This document shows positions 39,040-52,066 of a stretch of 52,066 bases of DNA, piece after piece (the stretch's first letter is position 1; each line of letters opens with the position of its first letter). The translations under genes and the position numbers were made by a program. The DNA comes from Heterostelium multicystogenum (Eukaryota > Evosea > Eumycetozoa > Acytosteliales > Acytosteliaceae). The notes below the pieces were generated by a model. It was not told the DNA's origin. It worked only from the letters and a program-made list of their open reading frames with translations, and did no database searches. Location: positions 1 to 52,066 of the forward strand of contig RCNN01000519.1 in the NCBI GenBank assembly GCA_003667245.1, given 5' to 3'.

Positions 39040-40841
39040 ATGAACACAATCAACATTACATTCAAAGACTCCACCAAACAAGTGAAGTGGTTTGGTGAGG
39101 TGTTGTCGGATGACATAGAGAATACCATTCGCAAGACTTTCAACATTCCAAACTGCAATGCCCTAATCCTTAAACATGAAGGAGCCGATGTTGCCATCAC
39201 ATCCACCCTGCCCAATGGCTTCAGCTTCTTGCTTACTGTTTGTGAATCAGTCCAAGCAGGTAAGTAAAAACAACATCTTGTTAATTTCGTTTCAATACTG
39301 ACAATTCTTTTTTTCTAAATCTTCTTACCTTCTTTTCTTTGACAATGACTTCTTTCAATATCATTAACTCTGTATTCTTTGATTTCACCTCACATTCCGT
39401 ATTACAAATAATTCTATAACATTCATACAATGGACACCATACGACCCACGCACTTGTTATTTCTTTCATTAAATACTTTAGAACCTCAGAATCTCGATGA
39501 TTGGGTCAAGAAAACAAATTATCCACTCCATCCTGCTAACAAACCATCATTTGATAATACACCATTCCAAAAAACTATATGGAAGAGAAAATACAAGGGA
39601 AGAACTTTTCGACATTGCAATGCTCAACATATAGTCTTTTCTCGAGAGATCTACGATCAAACAGAGATACACATTGCCGACTATCATTGGCGGCATGGGA
39701 ATTGGCAAAACAAGAGTTAGTGAGGAATATTATCATATAGTCAAGAGTTTTCAGCAAAATAAACCAATCTTTAGAGTAATTCAATCCTCAACTAAAACTA
39801 CAACAACCACCACAAATAATGTTGTGTTCCAAAATTTCAACACTATCTTTGGAAACAACATCTGGTATATCAAGATTGATTGTGCCAAGGAAGACTTTCT
39901 GGCTGCATCGGAACCCTATAGCAAGTACCTCACTTTATGCCTCGCTTCACATTTCCTTATCAATACTAGTTACCGTAGTGTGATTAGTGTACCATTTCCA
40001 TTTAATATCAGTGATATCCTTCAATACATTAACAAATTATACATCAACGAGACTAATCCCAAAGCAATACTCATTCTCCACATTGATGAATATTTCAAGC
40101 TCAGCACTGACCATCTAAATATACTCATCTCTAATTTGGCTGGTCTGCTCACTAATCAACATAACAATAATCTTTGTTTTCTCCCCATTCTTACTGGAAC
40201 TGATCTTAACAGAGCCAGAGAATCAATCAACTACTCTAAACTTGGGAACAGGACTATACTCCTTGGAGCTATACCCATAGATCTTACTTCTCAGATGTTG
40301 CAGCAGTACTGTTATAATTGGTCAATGATTTCTAAATCGAACTACAGTCCATTATCTATTCAATTAATTCTTGAAAGTTTGGGAGGAGTTCCAAGATTCC
40401 TCCAACTTTTCCTTCAACAAGTTGAAAAACTTACTTTGGATCTTAAACTCCAACATTTGTCTTTCACTACAAAAATATCTTTTTGAGACCACTAAAGACA
40501 TCATTAGAGTCTATTCAGTTAAAACATGGCAAGAGGTATTTAATGGTTCACTGGCTGGACTCCGTCAAATGATTATCTATTCTCTCTCTGGAAGGATTGT
40601 TTGTAGAGACACAATATTGAATGGAGTCACAATTGGTCAAATTGAATCAACTGGAATACTATTTCTGAAGCAAATCGAAAGCAATTCATGTAAGTTCACA
40701 ATCTATATGCCTTTATGTTTGATCAGAGCAATCAACTTGGTTCTCAATGACGTTAATGACTCTTTACTTGACATTTGTTCGACGAATGAAGAACATAAAT
40801 TTGATCTAACAATGAGTAAAATTCGAAGAGTTTGGAACTAA
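39040..40841 (+). CDS. Subtelomeric P-loop NTPase with ubiquitin-like header (CR-like), truncated
   Basis: Exon 1 (39040-39259) encodes a domain of about 73 residues (MNTINITFKDSTKQVKWFG, ... LPNGFSFLLTV) with a beta-grasp/ubiquitin-like pattern. A 222-nt intron (39260-39481, phase 1) leads to exon 2: linker EPQNLDDWVKKTNYPLHP; Walker A GGMGIGKTR (about 39690); Walker B AILILHIDEYF (about 40060); and C-terminal IMPL-type helices. This resembles NTPases of the STAND/Crinkler-RHS group. The protein ends about where its neighbour at 43.1-45.4 kb continues into a nuclease-like segment, so the effector-like end is missing. An in-frame TAG (39632-39634) and frame changes near 39590 and 40480 mean it is either error-laden or a pseudogene. 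Function unknown. Confidence 0.55.
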
Positions 40842-43147: not shown

Positions 43148-45421
43148 ATGTCATCGACTGAAGAAGAAACTGAAGTAACTCTTGCTGAGGTGCTCACCAA
43201 AGCTGGTTGTACATCAATCACAGCAGATTCTTTGTTGAAAGCCGGCCTTAATACTCGGAAATCTATCTATGAAGCTCTCAATGACACAAAATTCCATCCT
43301 CATCTGATGCAAATAGGATTCAACTTTGGAGACATCGTGAAGCTCAGTAGTTACCTCAAACAAGAACAATCAAATGGCTTCTCTGGTAAGTTTCACAAAG
43401 CAATGTCAAAGATTAGAATTCACTACTAACATGTACTCTTGCAATTTAGCGATGGAATCAGTGTTGCAATGGATTACGAATAGGAATCCAACAGTTCAGT
43501 ATCCTGCCCCAACGGTAACTATCTATTCAACATGTATCAAACAAAGGGTTAACTAACTCTGCTCCACAGATGGCCAACAGAGATCTTCCATTTCGAGGGA
43601 GGACGACAGAGATCAACCATTTTGTCGGCCTTGTTTCAAGTCGTTTGAACAAGCGTACCAGCCAGGACCGTACAGATCATCCACTGACCGTGATTGCGAG
43701 TGCTCCTGGCATTGGTAAAACAAGATTGCTCGAGGAAACATCACAGGCTCTTTTACAGCATGAGAGTCTCAAGAACTACTTTGTTGTACAGATCAACATC
43801 ACCTTTGGCAATGGATCAAGTGTCACACTCAAGGATGCGAAGTATGGAGGTATGCACGCTGTCAGCAGCCGTATCCTCTTTCGATTTTTCGAATCTCACT
43901 CAACATATGAACTCTTTATCGATAATTTCGAGAAGCAATTTGGAATCGGCTCATTTTCGTCCATCACTCCCACAATCTGTTTCAGCATCATCGAGAAATA
44001 CATGAGGCAATCTGTTCAATTCCAAGAACAGGTGAAAAACAAGACAATCTTCTTTAATATTGGTATTGATGAGTTCTCATTGCTATTTGTCAAAAACAGC
44101 ATCCTCAAGGAGAGGTACCAACAAGATATCGACACATACTTCAAGATACATCAACAATCGTTTGGCTTACTGCTCGATCAAGAGTCCAATCAAATCAATC
44201 GTTCCTTCTTGAAGGAGGTCATCCTTGCAGTCGTCCCTCTCCTCATTCCGAAACCCGTAGGTACCTTTTTTCATGTCACTATGGTTGGGACAATCATCAC
44301 ACCGATTAAAGATGTGATCCATGTCGACTCTTCACACCCATACAAGAGAGTACCCATTGGTCTCCTCAGCTTCAATGATACGTATTGGATCGCCCAACAG
44401 TATCTCTCAAACTCAGTGCTCTCTGACATCCAAGAAGCCAAACTCAGGAAAGTTCTGGCCTTCATTGGAGGATGGGCACGACCATTGTTCAAGTTCCTCG
44501 AGGCCTATCACTCTGACCCATCCAATCGTGACAATACACTCATCGGACTACTGAAATTTGTCCCCACACCTGGACTGGATTCAATGCTTCCGAATAAAAC
44601 AATTGCAAGGCTCGTGGCGATGTCACTGACAGCAGTTTCAGACAACAAAACTCGATTGGAGACGAACGCATTATGTATCGGAAGAATCGCTCGAGTCTCT
44701 AGAGAGCAAAGGAACAATCAGTTCGCTCGTATTGCCGGACAGCTCCCGTGTGGTGACTCTTCCTCTCATTCTTCTTCGCAATTACTGCGAGTCGAACCCC
44801 TTCCTCGTGCCCATCAAGCTCATGGTTGAGCATCTCATTGTCTGTGACGATCCGAGCTCATGGGAGGAATTCTGCTGTCGATATCTCCTGGCACGTAGGC
44901 ACTCCTTTGTGCTGCTTGGAAAGACATCAATTACCATAGGGGAGTACTTTGGTGATGCACAACGCACCAAAATAGTGAATCCAGAAACATCATTCACTCT
45001 TTCCTGTTCAGCTGAGCCAAAGCTCATCAAGCTTCAGAAACAATACCCGAAAACGTTAAACTCTATTGCTCCCGAGAATGTCTATCTCAATGCTGCTGGG
45101 GCCCCTTTCGACTGGCTCCAGTGTTTCCAAACATCGAGCCAAAGCAAGATCTACTTCTTGTGCGATGGAAAACATACTATTGTCAATGCTGCTCTGCCTC
45201 TTTCTGAAGTCAAAGAAAACATCAAAGCATGCACAACATCAATTGCTTCGATATTGGGCAAGCAGGACTCCTATATTCATTGCTTCATCACCAATCGAGA
45301 CTCAATCTCCAATGACATCATCTCGAACGTACAGAACTCGATGCTTCCCCTGTTGCTCATCAACAAACGAGGAAGCTTCTATCCTCTGTCCATACGCTCC
45401 TATATAGACAGCCAACTCTGA
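43148..45421 (+). CDS. Subtelomeric P-loop NTPase with helical header and nuclease-like C-terminus (CR-like)
   Basis: Start ATG 43148. Exons 43148-43385, 43450-43514 and 43570-45421; introns are 64 and 55 nt. About 717 residues. Domains: an N-terminal helical, SAM-like header (TLAEVLTKAGCTSITADSLL); linker ESVLQWITNRNPTVQYP; PFRGRTTEINHF leading to Walker A SAPGIGKTRLLEE (about residue 155); Walker B TIFFNIGIDEF; helical sensor-like segments; and a C-terminal block beginning SSWEEFCCRYL that carries GAPFDWLQCF and KIYFLCDGKH. The spacing of that Asp and the DxK resembles a restriction-endonuclease fold active site. Header, NTPase and nuclease order matches Crinkler/RHS-type (CR) proteins, which include effectors acting in nuclei; role here unknown. 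One frame slip lies near 44670. Poly(A) signal AATAAA at 45521. It looks expressed rather than decayed. Confidence 0.7.
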
Positions 45422-45598: not shown

Positions 45599-45900
45599 TT
45601 CCTCGACATACACCACCAATACTACGACATTAACAACAAGACCAATTCACCAAGTTGTTTGGCAGGCTTGACATTGGCAAGAATCTGACTGATATGGAAC
45701 AACTATATATGATGACAAGTTCATGGTACCTCATCTTGACTTCTCTGGCTTGAAAACCAACTTCACCTTTGAGGTAAGACAACACAAAATGAAACAAGGC
45801 TATCACCATTTCTTACTAAAAATGAAACAAGTATTTGAGACAGACTCCAACAGCAAGGTCAATGGTTCTGTCAAGCGTTTCATTGAGGACTACCAGTAAT
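45599..45900 (+). pseudogene. Partial copy of AAA-ATPase-like gene
   Basis: About 300 bases matching 50319-50600 in the same orientation (shared CAATGGTTCTGTCAAGCG and CATCTTGACTTCTCTGG). The copy is frame-disrupted and lacks both ends. It is a remnant of the same family as the decayed gene at 50.3-51.6 kb. Confidence 0.7.
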
Positions 45901-47077: not shown

Positions 47078-48342
47078 ATGAATAATTATTCAAATATACA
47101 CAAATATTATAGCAAAAGCATGGGACTTCAAGAGTCATGATACAACTCTAGTATTACAAAAGTAGAGAATGTTGATTTTTCACAAGTAGAGAGAGTGAAT
47201 CAACCTCAACAACAGCCACTTCAACAAAAGGATAGACATTTCATGATGCCAACCATATCTTTAATGTCAAAGAATAGTAATAATAGTACACCAATTGCTC
47301 CAGTCAAGTTGCCAAATGTCATTAGAAGAAAGATATATGCTCCAAACATTATGGAACATTATATAAATCCAACAGTTTCATCATTGGTATGTTAAATGAA
47401 AATACTATTTTATTAATTTAAATTATTAATTAATATTTAAAGGCCAAACAGATTCCAAATAAAGGTTTGGATCAAGGAAATAAACCTCTGGAAAGAGTTG
47501 CCAATAGAGAATTAGCTGTACCAAGCATCAACAAAAGATATATGAATCCTATAGTTTCATCAAACGTATGTAGATTATTATTATCAAAATTATTTATTAA
47601 TTAGATAAATACAGGCCAAGCAGATTCCAAGTGAAGATTTGGATCAAGAAAATAAACCTCTGGAAAGAGTGACTAAAAGAAGGTTAGAGGTACCATCCAT
47701 CAACAATAGATTCATAAATCATACAATTTCATCTGGTGTATGTATATTATAATACAATACTTAAATAATATAATTGGAAGTTAAAAAGGCCAAGAAACAA
47801 CCTAGGATTAAATCTGTGGATCAAGAAAAGAAGCATCTGGAAAGAGTGACCAAAAGAACGTTAAGTGTACCTAGCATCAATAACAGATTTGTCCAAGACA
47901 CCATATCATCAATGGTAATAGCGAGTTTTACAATAATTCTAAATTGTTAATTAATATATCTGTTATTTGTATAGGGCAAGAAACCTATTCCTAGTTTACC
48001 AATAGATAGTTTACCTGAATAGATTAGAAACTTCTTTGGCAAGAGTCAACAAAAGAATATTAGATGTACCAACCATCAACAATAGATTTGTCCAAGACAC
48101 CATTTCATCAAGAGTATTATAAATTTAAATAACAAATCTATATAATATAAATATTAATTAATCTTTTATGAATATAGGCCAAACAGCAGTTTAAAAGTCA
48201 TAGAGTAAGATCGGAGTCCAACAGAGTTACACAGGAGTCTACAGAGGTCAAAGATTGTGAGAATCTTATTGTTGAAAGTGGCTTTTTAATACAATTTTGT
48301 ATTATTATCAGTATAATTGTAAGTATCTGTAAGTATCTGTAA
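47078..48342 (+). CDS. Tandem-exon repeat protein with C-terminal membrane anchor
   Basis: Six exons: 47078-47386, 47443-47565, 47615-47737, 47789-47914, 47975-48113 and 48178-48342; all five introns (49-64 nt) are phase 0. Exons 2-5 are diverged copies of one unit of 41-46 codons: start AKQIP or GKKPIP, centre LERVTKRRLEVPSINNRF, end TISS; the end of exon 1 (PNVIRRKIYAPNIMEHYINP) is another copy. The last exon is charged, then ends in a hydrophobic segment FLIQFCIIISIIVSICKYL, a tail-anchor arrangement. ATG 47078 is followed by an in-frame TGA at 47138, so the true start may be ATG 47243 or the stop may be an error. Exon 5 has one extra base (139 nt). No family is recognised; the basic repeats could bind nucleic acid or acidic lipid (inference). 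Confidence 0.6.
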
Positions 48343-48348
48343 GTATGT
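48319..48348 (+). repeat. Triple tandem GTAAGTATCT
   Basis: Three 10-base units, each containing a consensus donor-like GTAAGTAT (the third unit ends GTAAGTATGT), span the stop codon of the tandem-exon gene. It could offer alternative splice donors that change the C-terminus. Confidence 0.7.
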
Positions 48349-48448
48349 ATAGAAGTATATTAAAATTGAATAGTGGTTGGTTGGACGGTTTCGGTAGGTA
48401 TCTATTAATAAATTTTTCTTTTCTTCTTCTCTTTCTCAAAAATTAACT

Positions 48449-48715
48449 CCAAGGGAAATCGGTCCAGCAGATTGAGCAACATTGGTTCCGACAGCTGTGA
48501 CTAAGGAATAATGTTGCTCAAATGAGATAGTCAATAGAGTTGGGAACTTGAGACTATCTCATTTTCTCGAAAGAGAAACTACTGGCCGTCGTGGCTAAGG
48601 TCAACAATCTATTTTGAATGGAGGCGAGCTGTTCAAATTGATTGTGGATGTAGAGTCACATGATGATTGATTCTAAATCAATCGATCATGTCTCGGCGTA
48701 GGAGGATCAGGATCC
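48449..48715. ncRNA. Hairpin-dense block, candidate structured RNA
   Basis: Four consecutive inverted repeats: TTGAGCAACATT (48472) with its complement at 48510-48521 (12 bp); ATGAGATAGTC (48522) with 48552-48562 (11 bp); TTTCTC-GAAA-GAGAAA (48563-48578, GNRA-type loop); CATGATGATTGATT (48659) with 48676-48690 (14 bp, one bulge). Smaller pairs nest in the first two loops (TTCC/GGAA, CAGCTG, AGTT/AACT). GC content is higher than the flanks and no ORF spans it. Strand, ends and family are unknown; a transposon end or assembly artefact cannot be excluded. Confidence 0.45.
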
Positions 48716-49329
48716 TGGCAAAATACTATTCATACTTGTTTGTGCCAACTTCATTTTTCATTTTTTTAATTTTCACACACTCCACTCCCTTTGTTGTTTT
48801 TACCAACAAGTATTGCTATTATCAAGTAACATAAGTTAATCAGTTATTACTTGATGATATCAATACTTGTGTAGATTCAAGCTTCAATTATTTTTAATTT
48901 CATTTAACTACAATACCAAGCTACAATGTCACCGGTTAAAGATTGTATTTGTTTTAATTATATTCGTATAGTTGTATCAACAGTTTGAGCGAGAGACTCA
49001 TAGTATACTTGTTAGTCAAAGTGACTGTGTCACTCTCATCACGGACAAGATAAATGATCATAGATTTGATATTATGAATTCAAGTCTGGAGCATCACTAA
49101 GACAAGGCTACTATTCGGCCCTTGCACTACTTGTCAGAGTTAACAATAGATTACCATAAGATACGAGTAATAATGGACACAAGTAAAAGAACAAGTTATA
49201 CATTAGACCTCGATTTGAATGCGTGATGATATTAAAGCTATATTCCATGTTCATGACAAAATATTGGTATGATAAGAGGTGTAAAGTTTATTAATGGATA
49301 AGCACTCCACTTCAAGTATGTCATCAAAT
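48716..49329. other. Subtelomeric spacer, nothing recognised
   Basis: About 610 bases with no supported ORF or RNA. It is less AT-rich near 48960-49140 than typical intergenic DNA here, which may indicate an old insertion. Confidence 0.4.
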
Positions 49330-52020: not shown

Positions 52021-52066
52021 GAGGGTAGAGGTAGAGGGTAGAGGGTAGAGGGTAGAGGGTTAGAGG
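52021..52066 (+). repeat. Probable telomere repeat (TAGAGGG)n
   Basis: The window ends in tandem TAGAGGG units with slight variants (one TAGAGG, last TTAGAGG). The G-rich strand runs 5' to 3' toward the end, as expected for a right-hand chromosome end. It is one base longer than, and related to, TTAGGG-type repeats by G/A composition. Only six units are seen, so an internal interstitial tract is possible if the contig is cut here. Confidence 0.75.

Follow-up and report, generated by a model that had tools for sequence, protein, structure and literature searches.

A Crinkler-RHS-like family of header, NTPase and predicted nuclease genes in Heterostelium multicystogenum, with likely diversification by recombination at a conserved phase-1 intron

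We analyzed a stretch of 52,066 bases of Heterostelium multicystogenum, hereafter the window, which constitutes one whole contig (C488; contigs are cited by number throughout) of a 29.7-Mb assembly of 528 contigs. It carries a three-exon gene in which a first exon encoding a helical N-terminal module, the header (header 1), is spliced to a body (body A) that combines a P-loop nucleoside triphosphatase (NTPase) with a nuclease-like C-terminal domain (Table 1). The nearest protein matches come from Acytostelium subglobosum LB1, a dictyostelid. The first-pass annotation had read it as a modular, subtelomeric protein of the Crinkler/RHS type, and this reading is supported by the modeled folds of the NTPase and C-terminal parts and by the family described below, in which the same header exon is found on unrelated bodies and the same body under different headers; this family is a new finding.

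Headers and bodies are combined in several ways in this family. The header exon of the window gene recurs on 12 other contigs (C6, C495, C376, C319, C482, C464, C47, C481, C69, C337, C410 and C194; E <=1.1e-5, best piece per contig), and body A has homologs on six others, namely C471, C472, C197, C495, C371, which retains body fragments only, and C103, at 24-35% identity. The proposed succession of helical header, NTPase and nuclease is thus more than a chance juxtaposition. The pairing of header 1 with body A seen in the window is repeated at C495. Elsewhere, header 1 is followed by P-loop NTPase bodies that are RHS/CRN-like by eye (C6 and C319), by a body made up of a coiled coil (by eye) and a nuclease-like region with the signature TTDLIL...CFELKK (C482, C464, C47, C410 and C481, the last cut by a frame change), by another nuclease-like body (C69), and by a body matching none of the recognized kinds (C376); C337 and C194 stand outside this classification. 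In the reverse direction, four bodies were seen under two headers: body A (C488 versus C471 and C472, which place a distinct header 2 in front of it), a SAP-nuclease body (C68 and C36), the uncategorized body (C376 and C450a), and the body of the neighboring gene in the window, which begins at 39040 and shares its body with C15 at a score of 1478 against a header score of 26, a pair compared by these scores alone and kept outside the mapping of switch points given below. Header 2 itself recurs at C68, before a SAP domain and a nuclease-like region with the signature TTDIVIA...FIEMKTP, and at C10, before another P-loop NTPase. The modules are exchangeably joined.

This modularity, which the first-pass annotation had suggested, is visible at the DNA level. 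We mapped where identity switches in 11 pairs, with positions counted from the donor of intron 1. Eight of these pairs share one side, and in all eight the switch falls in or at the edge of intron 1, amounting to about seven independent cases because C471 and C472 are near-copies. Body identity sets in at 0 for C488/C471 (99.4%), C488/C472 (99.5%) and C376/C450a (90.1%), and at -5 for C68/C36 (97.6%); header identity ends at +25 for C488/C6 (89%), at +45 for both C488/C376 (94%) and C471/C68 (92%), and at +72 for C36/C450a (92%). Both sides are shared in the pairs C471/C472 and C488/C495, while C376 and C68, with unlike headers and bodies, are alike at 93.5% from 0 to +92 and in short pieces elsewhere. 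From the seam at 43386, C472 tracks the window at 99.5% up to 49354, where C472 begins, and, ahead of their different headers, C488 and C471 have a stretch in common at 72.7% (-638 to -516). For eight loci a telomere is seen on the contig (C488, C495, C482, C464, C47, C481, C68 and C74), and at all eight, four of which are near-copies, the gene points toward it; near other contig ends, the genes at C287, C288 and C502 point away from those ends, the contig tips having been examined for part of the family loci. One exchange in the intron would swap the body and the chromosome end at once.

The intron itself constitutes a conserved seam. Its kept parts, the donor, the ACTAAC branch site and the pyrimidine tract, recur in otherwise unlike genes. 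The first 16 bases are found at 19 genomic sites with <=1 mismatch, versus 1 for the reversed pattern; a control joining the donor to a reversed tail gave 0 sites, and the reversed control of that pattern gave 4. Inspection covered 14 of the 19 sites, leaving out C135, C144, C467, C481:8098 and C482:8018: the downstream frames are P-loop or nuclease-like by eye at 10 of them, two, both in C376, lead into the uncategorized body of that contig, the frame at C502 could be likened only to RHS C-termini, and at C2 the header alone was inspected. A pattern joining the donor to the branch site matched at 14 places, its reversed control at none; of the 14, 13 fall in header-body genes or in C376/C450a. 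The remaining one, C180, was rejected as a family member, being a chance seam match in a gene that is PCNA-like by eye. The seam intron is in phase 1 in 12 of the 14 headers scored (the exceptions are C471 and C2), with C495 and C376 counted from an internal ATG and with C481, C49, C74, C287 and C502 lacking an open header. A first shuffle test that preserved the donor only, which 15 of 17 PCNA pairs passed, overstates the sharing of the intron because the loci had been picked by their first 12-16 bases; hence, it was repeated without them. Once the first 16 bases were taken out, 78 of the 116 pairs that are unlike on both sides still scored above all 100 shuffles in intron 1, versus none of the 17 PCNA control pairs. 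The 38 failing pairs cluster on C6, C502 and the short introns of body A, and the intron of the window gene passes in 4 of its 11 pairs. As separate observations, the start of the seam intron is doubled, 139-142 bases apart, in C376 (L038) and C450a (L067), and further seam-like intron parts lie at C472:271521, at C40:38637 and at the start of C194.

Table 1. Features of the window, in window coordinates
Feature	Position	Strand	Remarks
Neighboring gene, exon 1, ubiquitin-like header (by eye)	39040-39259	+	phase-1 end
Neighboring gene, seam-type intron	donor 39260; listed 39260-39411	+	3' end before or within the next reading frame
Neighboring gene, NTPase body, broken frames	39412-40841	+	same body as C15 (L060)
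Neighboring gene, NTPase motifs	GGMGIGKTR at 39689, HIDEY at 40079	+	
Whole gene	ATG 43148, stop end 45421	+	three exons, two GT-AG introns
Exon 1, header 1 (helical)	43148-43385	+	79 codons + 1 base, phase-1 end
Intron 1, conserved seam	43386-43449	+	GT-AG; donor GTAAGTTTCACAAAGC; ACTAAC branch site ending 43430
Exon 2, 65 nt	43450-43514	+	
Intron 2, GT-AG	43515-43569	+	
Exon 3, first frame: P-loop NTPase	43570-44634	+	
Walker A SAPGIGKTR	43699-43725	+	
Walker-B-like IGIDEF	44059-44076	+	
GGWARP	44467-44484	+	
Exon 3, second frame: end of NTPase module and nuclease-like C-terminal domain	44630-45421	+	stop 45419-45421
C-terminal domain as folded alone, PD-(D/E)xK-like	44810-45418	+	
Asp codon of PFD	45110-45112	+	
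DxK codons (DGK of CDGK)	45164-45172	+	
Telomere-proximal repeat array, TAGAGGG units	52021-52066	+	right contig end

The first-pass annotation had described a single spliced gene with a header and the motifs SAPGIGKTR, IGIDEF, PFD and CDGK. The motifs and the introns hold, and the header-NTPase-nuclease observation is partly confirmed. A point absent from that annotation is a frame shift near 44.64 kb, such that the NTPase and nuclease parts lie in two different frames of the assembly, and no GT-AG intron of the kind usual in this gene is seen there. The frame change is probably an assembly error, since the A. subglobosum orthologs are open here and several HSP70 genes look frame-broken in this assembly as well. 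Two A. subglobosum proteins carry the NTPase and the C-terminal block as one open protein each: P0001 (617 aa) is 81% identical to the query stretch and, as annotated, starts at the NTPase and lacks a header; P0002 (705 aa) is 70% identical and has a different N-terminus. At C209, C480, C307 and C511, the HSP70 genes show up as consecutive segments read in different frames, a pattern suggestive of indel errors in the assembly, with introns potentially accounting for part of the breaks. The body A copies at C471, C472 and C197 also show frame changes, partly at other positions. Just downstream of the gene lie remnants of reading frames (45693-45899, L042:1296-1790 and L025:1168-1548), which by eye resemble a longer frame at C47 (FKEYFSQLKSACYKTNTIAFITGV) and are perhaps the relic of another NTPase.

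When folded alone, the C-terminal domain yields a model (predicted local distance difference test score 67) resembling PD-(D/E)xK nucleases, with fold scores that are weak but consistent. Its core is alpha-beta, with Asp 101 preceding the strand 102-108 and D119-x-K121 ending the strand 113-119, and residues of the catalytic type are retained at identities as low as 24-36%. Structure prediction had been set beforehand as a test of this domain, and it did not return a non-nuclease fold; the weak but consistent matches predict a PD-(D/E)xK-type nuclease. Searches of a viral fold library (no match at E <=0.001) and, by sequence, of solved structures (nothing credible) added no relative, and an alignment search for distant body relatives that scored 7,995 candidates recovered the same 3 proteins alone. 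The NTPase has fold matches to AAA+ domains in general, and the nSTAND profile matched in relatives only, below its cut-off; on these models we describe it as AAA+/STAND-like. A housekeeping NTPase, which the first-pass annotation had named among the findings that could overturn its reading, was rejected as no such family reached its cut-off. The full-length model of P0001 is poor and interpretable at the NTPase core only. Separately, the body with the TTDIVIA...FIEMKTP signature stands under two different headers at C68 (L055) and C36 (L066), and the SAP domain in it scores 19.5 bits, under the cut-off of 23.9.

Four headers were scanned against Pfam without matching any family, and a SAM domain in header 1, a likeness noted by eye alone, was accordingly dropped. 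Two further candidates were discarded: a match of header 1 to a TALE-like BurrH profile rests on short words repeated in the target, as do matches of the ubiquitin-like headers to designed repeat proteins, the latter judged from the table of hits alone. The headers of the neighboring gene, C36, C450a and C2 are ubiquitin-like by eye, but the three of them scanned gave no profile match and no solved ubiquitin-like structure was matched; header 1 is not ubiquitin-like by eye, and another helical header is found at C15. In the protein collection, 28 candidates for header 1 included none at E <=10; this search is confined to proteins between 0.55 and 1.75 times as long as the query and so is no proof of absence. 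No signal peptide is visible by eye in header 1, the LXLFLAK motif is absent from the exon 1 translation, and there is no HVLVXXP motif at the header end, exon 1 closing with ...QSNGFS at the donor site.

The chromosomal setting agrees with the telomeric location that had been claimed for the gene, as the right contig end carries a terminal repeat array (Table 1). TAGAGGG arrays number 196 genome-wide, and those among the 100 listed either occupy the minus strand within positions 2-143 of a contig or, in C42, C145, C199 and C328, the plus strand at high positions. Outward of the TAGAGGG units, TAAGGG units occupy the contig starts of C495, C482, C464, C47 and C481. TTAGGG was rejected as the telomere repeat, as a run of three such units was not found; the repeat is TAGAGGG followed by TAAGGG. 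Subtelomeric repeats of ~172 bases lie at 47423-48744, within a stretch that is shared with C471, C472 and C371 at ~91-93%. The adjoining paralog with a different header, likewise noted by the first-pass annotation, is indeed present in the form of the neighboring gene (Table 1).

According to PMC5289972, CR (Crinkler-RHS) proteins join helical or ubiquitin-like headers to NTPase/nuclease or other bodies and occur in free-living eukaryotes; the trypanosome retrotransposon hot spot (RHS) proteins are named there as relatives of the Crinkler (CRN) proteins. The present family parallels their NTPase plus nuclease class (Zhang et al. 2016, via PMC5289972) in its header, P-loop NTPase and restriction-endonuclease-like C-terminus, in having headers that are unrelated and helical or that look ubiquitin-like by eye, and in its occurrence in a free-living eukaryote. 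Two features typical of such proteins are found here: an exchangeable header on unrelated enzymatic bodies, and a P-loop NTPase followed by a domain of the restriction endonuclease superfamily, the motifs of both being present in the sequence and in the open orthologs and the nuclease fold being predicted by a model with weak but consistent scores. It departs from them in that the exchange point is an intron and header 1 is not of the ubiquitin-like type. The Pfam scan reported no Crinkler or RHS model for the window pieces, for the orthologs, or for header 1 and the headers of ubiquitin-like appearance; membership in the CR class thus rests on the architecture and weak fold matches. The bodies at C6, C319, C49 and C74 by eye resemble trypanosome RHS proteins, with no Pfam RHS match in the family. 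Unlike bacterial polymorphic toxins (Rhs and CdiA), the system is eukaryotic and intron-based, and has an NTPase between header and nuclease. A close parallel for the exchange is the CRN effectors of Phytophthora: those of P. sojae undergo N/C recombination (PMC3726527), and similar N-termini with unrelated C-termini, and the reverse, arise by reshuffling at one fixed place (PMC5289972, PMC3726527). There, the coding motif HVLVVVP is the hot spot (PMC5289972 names HVLVXXP as the recombination hot spot), whereas here it is a non-coding phase-1 intron and the genes of telomeric loci point to the telomere. The word "intron" is absent from the main text of both papers, and none of the terms searched for occur in the A. 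subglobosum genome paper (PMC4334915). Within a partial literature collection, we found no paper linking crinkler with dictyostelids, Dictyostelium NTPase/nuclease or the Acytostelium genome, nor, by title, one on an intron seam for CRN module exchange.

Several other explanations deserve consideration. One could see in these loci a decaying subtelomeric repeat family, whose bodies would for the most part be pseudogenes carried along when chromosome ends are copied, devoid of present function. The frame changes at C488, C471, C472, C197 and C495, the mere fragments left at C371 and a ratio of non-synonymous to synonymous substitutions (dN/dS) of 0.6-0.84 (the values involving the C471 nuclease and C495 being artefacts of frame errors) point in that direction; we nevertheless regard it as unlikely in view of the similarly broken appearance of the HSP70 genes, the two copies open in A. 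subglobosum at 70-81% identity, and the persistence of catalytic-type residues in distant relatives. It is also doubtful that the proteins are secreted effectors acting on prey, rivals or hosts in the manner of oomycete Crinklers, with which they share their architecture as laid out in PMC5289972: header 1 has neither a signal peptide by eye nor LXLFLAK, a STAND/AAA+-type NTPase fits an intracellular switch, and that same text places CR proteins in free-living eukaryotes too. Since no signal peptide is visible by eye in the header, we lean toward a switch-type nuclease acting inside the cell rather than a secreted effector.

That an old family keeps the intron for a separate role, be it in splicing control, as an enhancer or as a non-coding RNA, with recombination being incidental, would agree with the nature of what is conserved, namely donor, branch site and pyrimidine tract, and with the doubled seam starts in C376 and C450a. 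As the whole account it appears quite improbable, for one-side identities of 89-99.5% that fall within the intron require recent exchange whatever maintains it, and both may hold. Finally, that the junctions are chimeras made by an assembler misled by the repeated intron is very hard to sustain, even though C376 and C68 share a 62-base exact intron word long enough to mislead short-read assembly and the assembly has many apparent frame breaks, given that the junction of header 1 with body A exists at two loci differing on both flanks (C488 versus C495: 305 identical, 15 mismatched and 20 gapped positions upstream, 507, 50 and 6 downstream), header 1 precedes the coiled-coil nuclease body on five contigs, the longest exact intron word in other pairs unlike in header and body is 36 bases (<=28 for C15, C287, C49, C74 and C2 versus unlike genes), the headers of C6 and C488 are just 89% alike, and the two A. 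subglobosum proteins share a body but not an N-terminus.

Thus, we consider it likely that these genes form a Crinkler-RHS-like family of header-gated nucleases, partly subtelomeric, whose diversity arose by recombination within a conserved phase-1 intron. Exon 1 would be the exchangeable header and the remainder the body, an AAA+/STAND-like NTPase with a PD-(D/E)xK-type nuclease. Homologous recombination within the intron, or copying of the telomere-side arm from there, could deal new bodies to headers, the phase-1 position leaving the frame unbroken. In the resulting protein, the header might sense or localize, nucleotide binding by the NTPase might throw the switch, and the nuclease might then cleave nucleic acid, whether from an intruder, from a rival or from the cell itself. 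More tentatively, one may conceive of the family as a combinatorial nuclease repertoire, generated by exchange of telomere-side arms through one phase-1 intron, and as a eukaryotic system akin to polymorphic toxins or NLRs; such a repertoire may serve defense or self/non-self recognition among amoebae.

The finding is genuine and extends beyond the first-pass description. Crinkler-like proteins are known above all as pathogen effectors. The intron as the joining site is the most surprising part. The seam also acts as a sequence tag, as a search with 16 of its bases brought up further members with unrelated headers and bodies. If the proposed reading is true, the family would offer a non-pathogenic system in which both the mechanism of exchange at chromosome ends and the original function of such proteins, be it defense, self-recognition or killing, could be tested.
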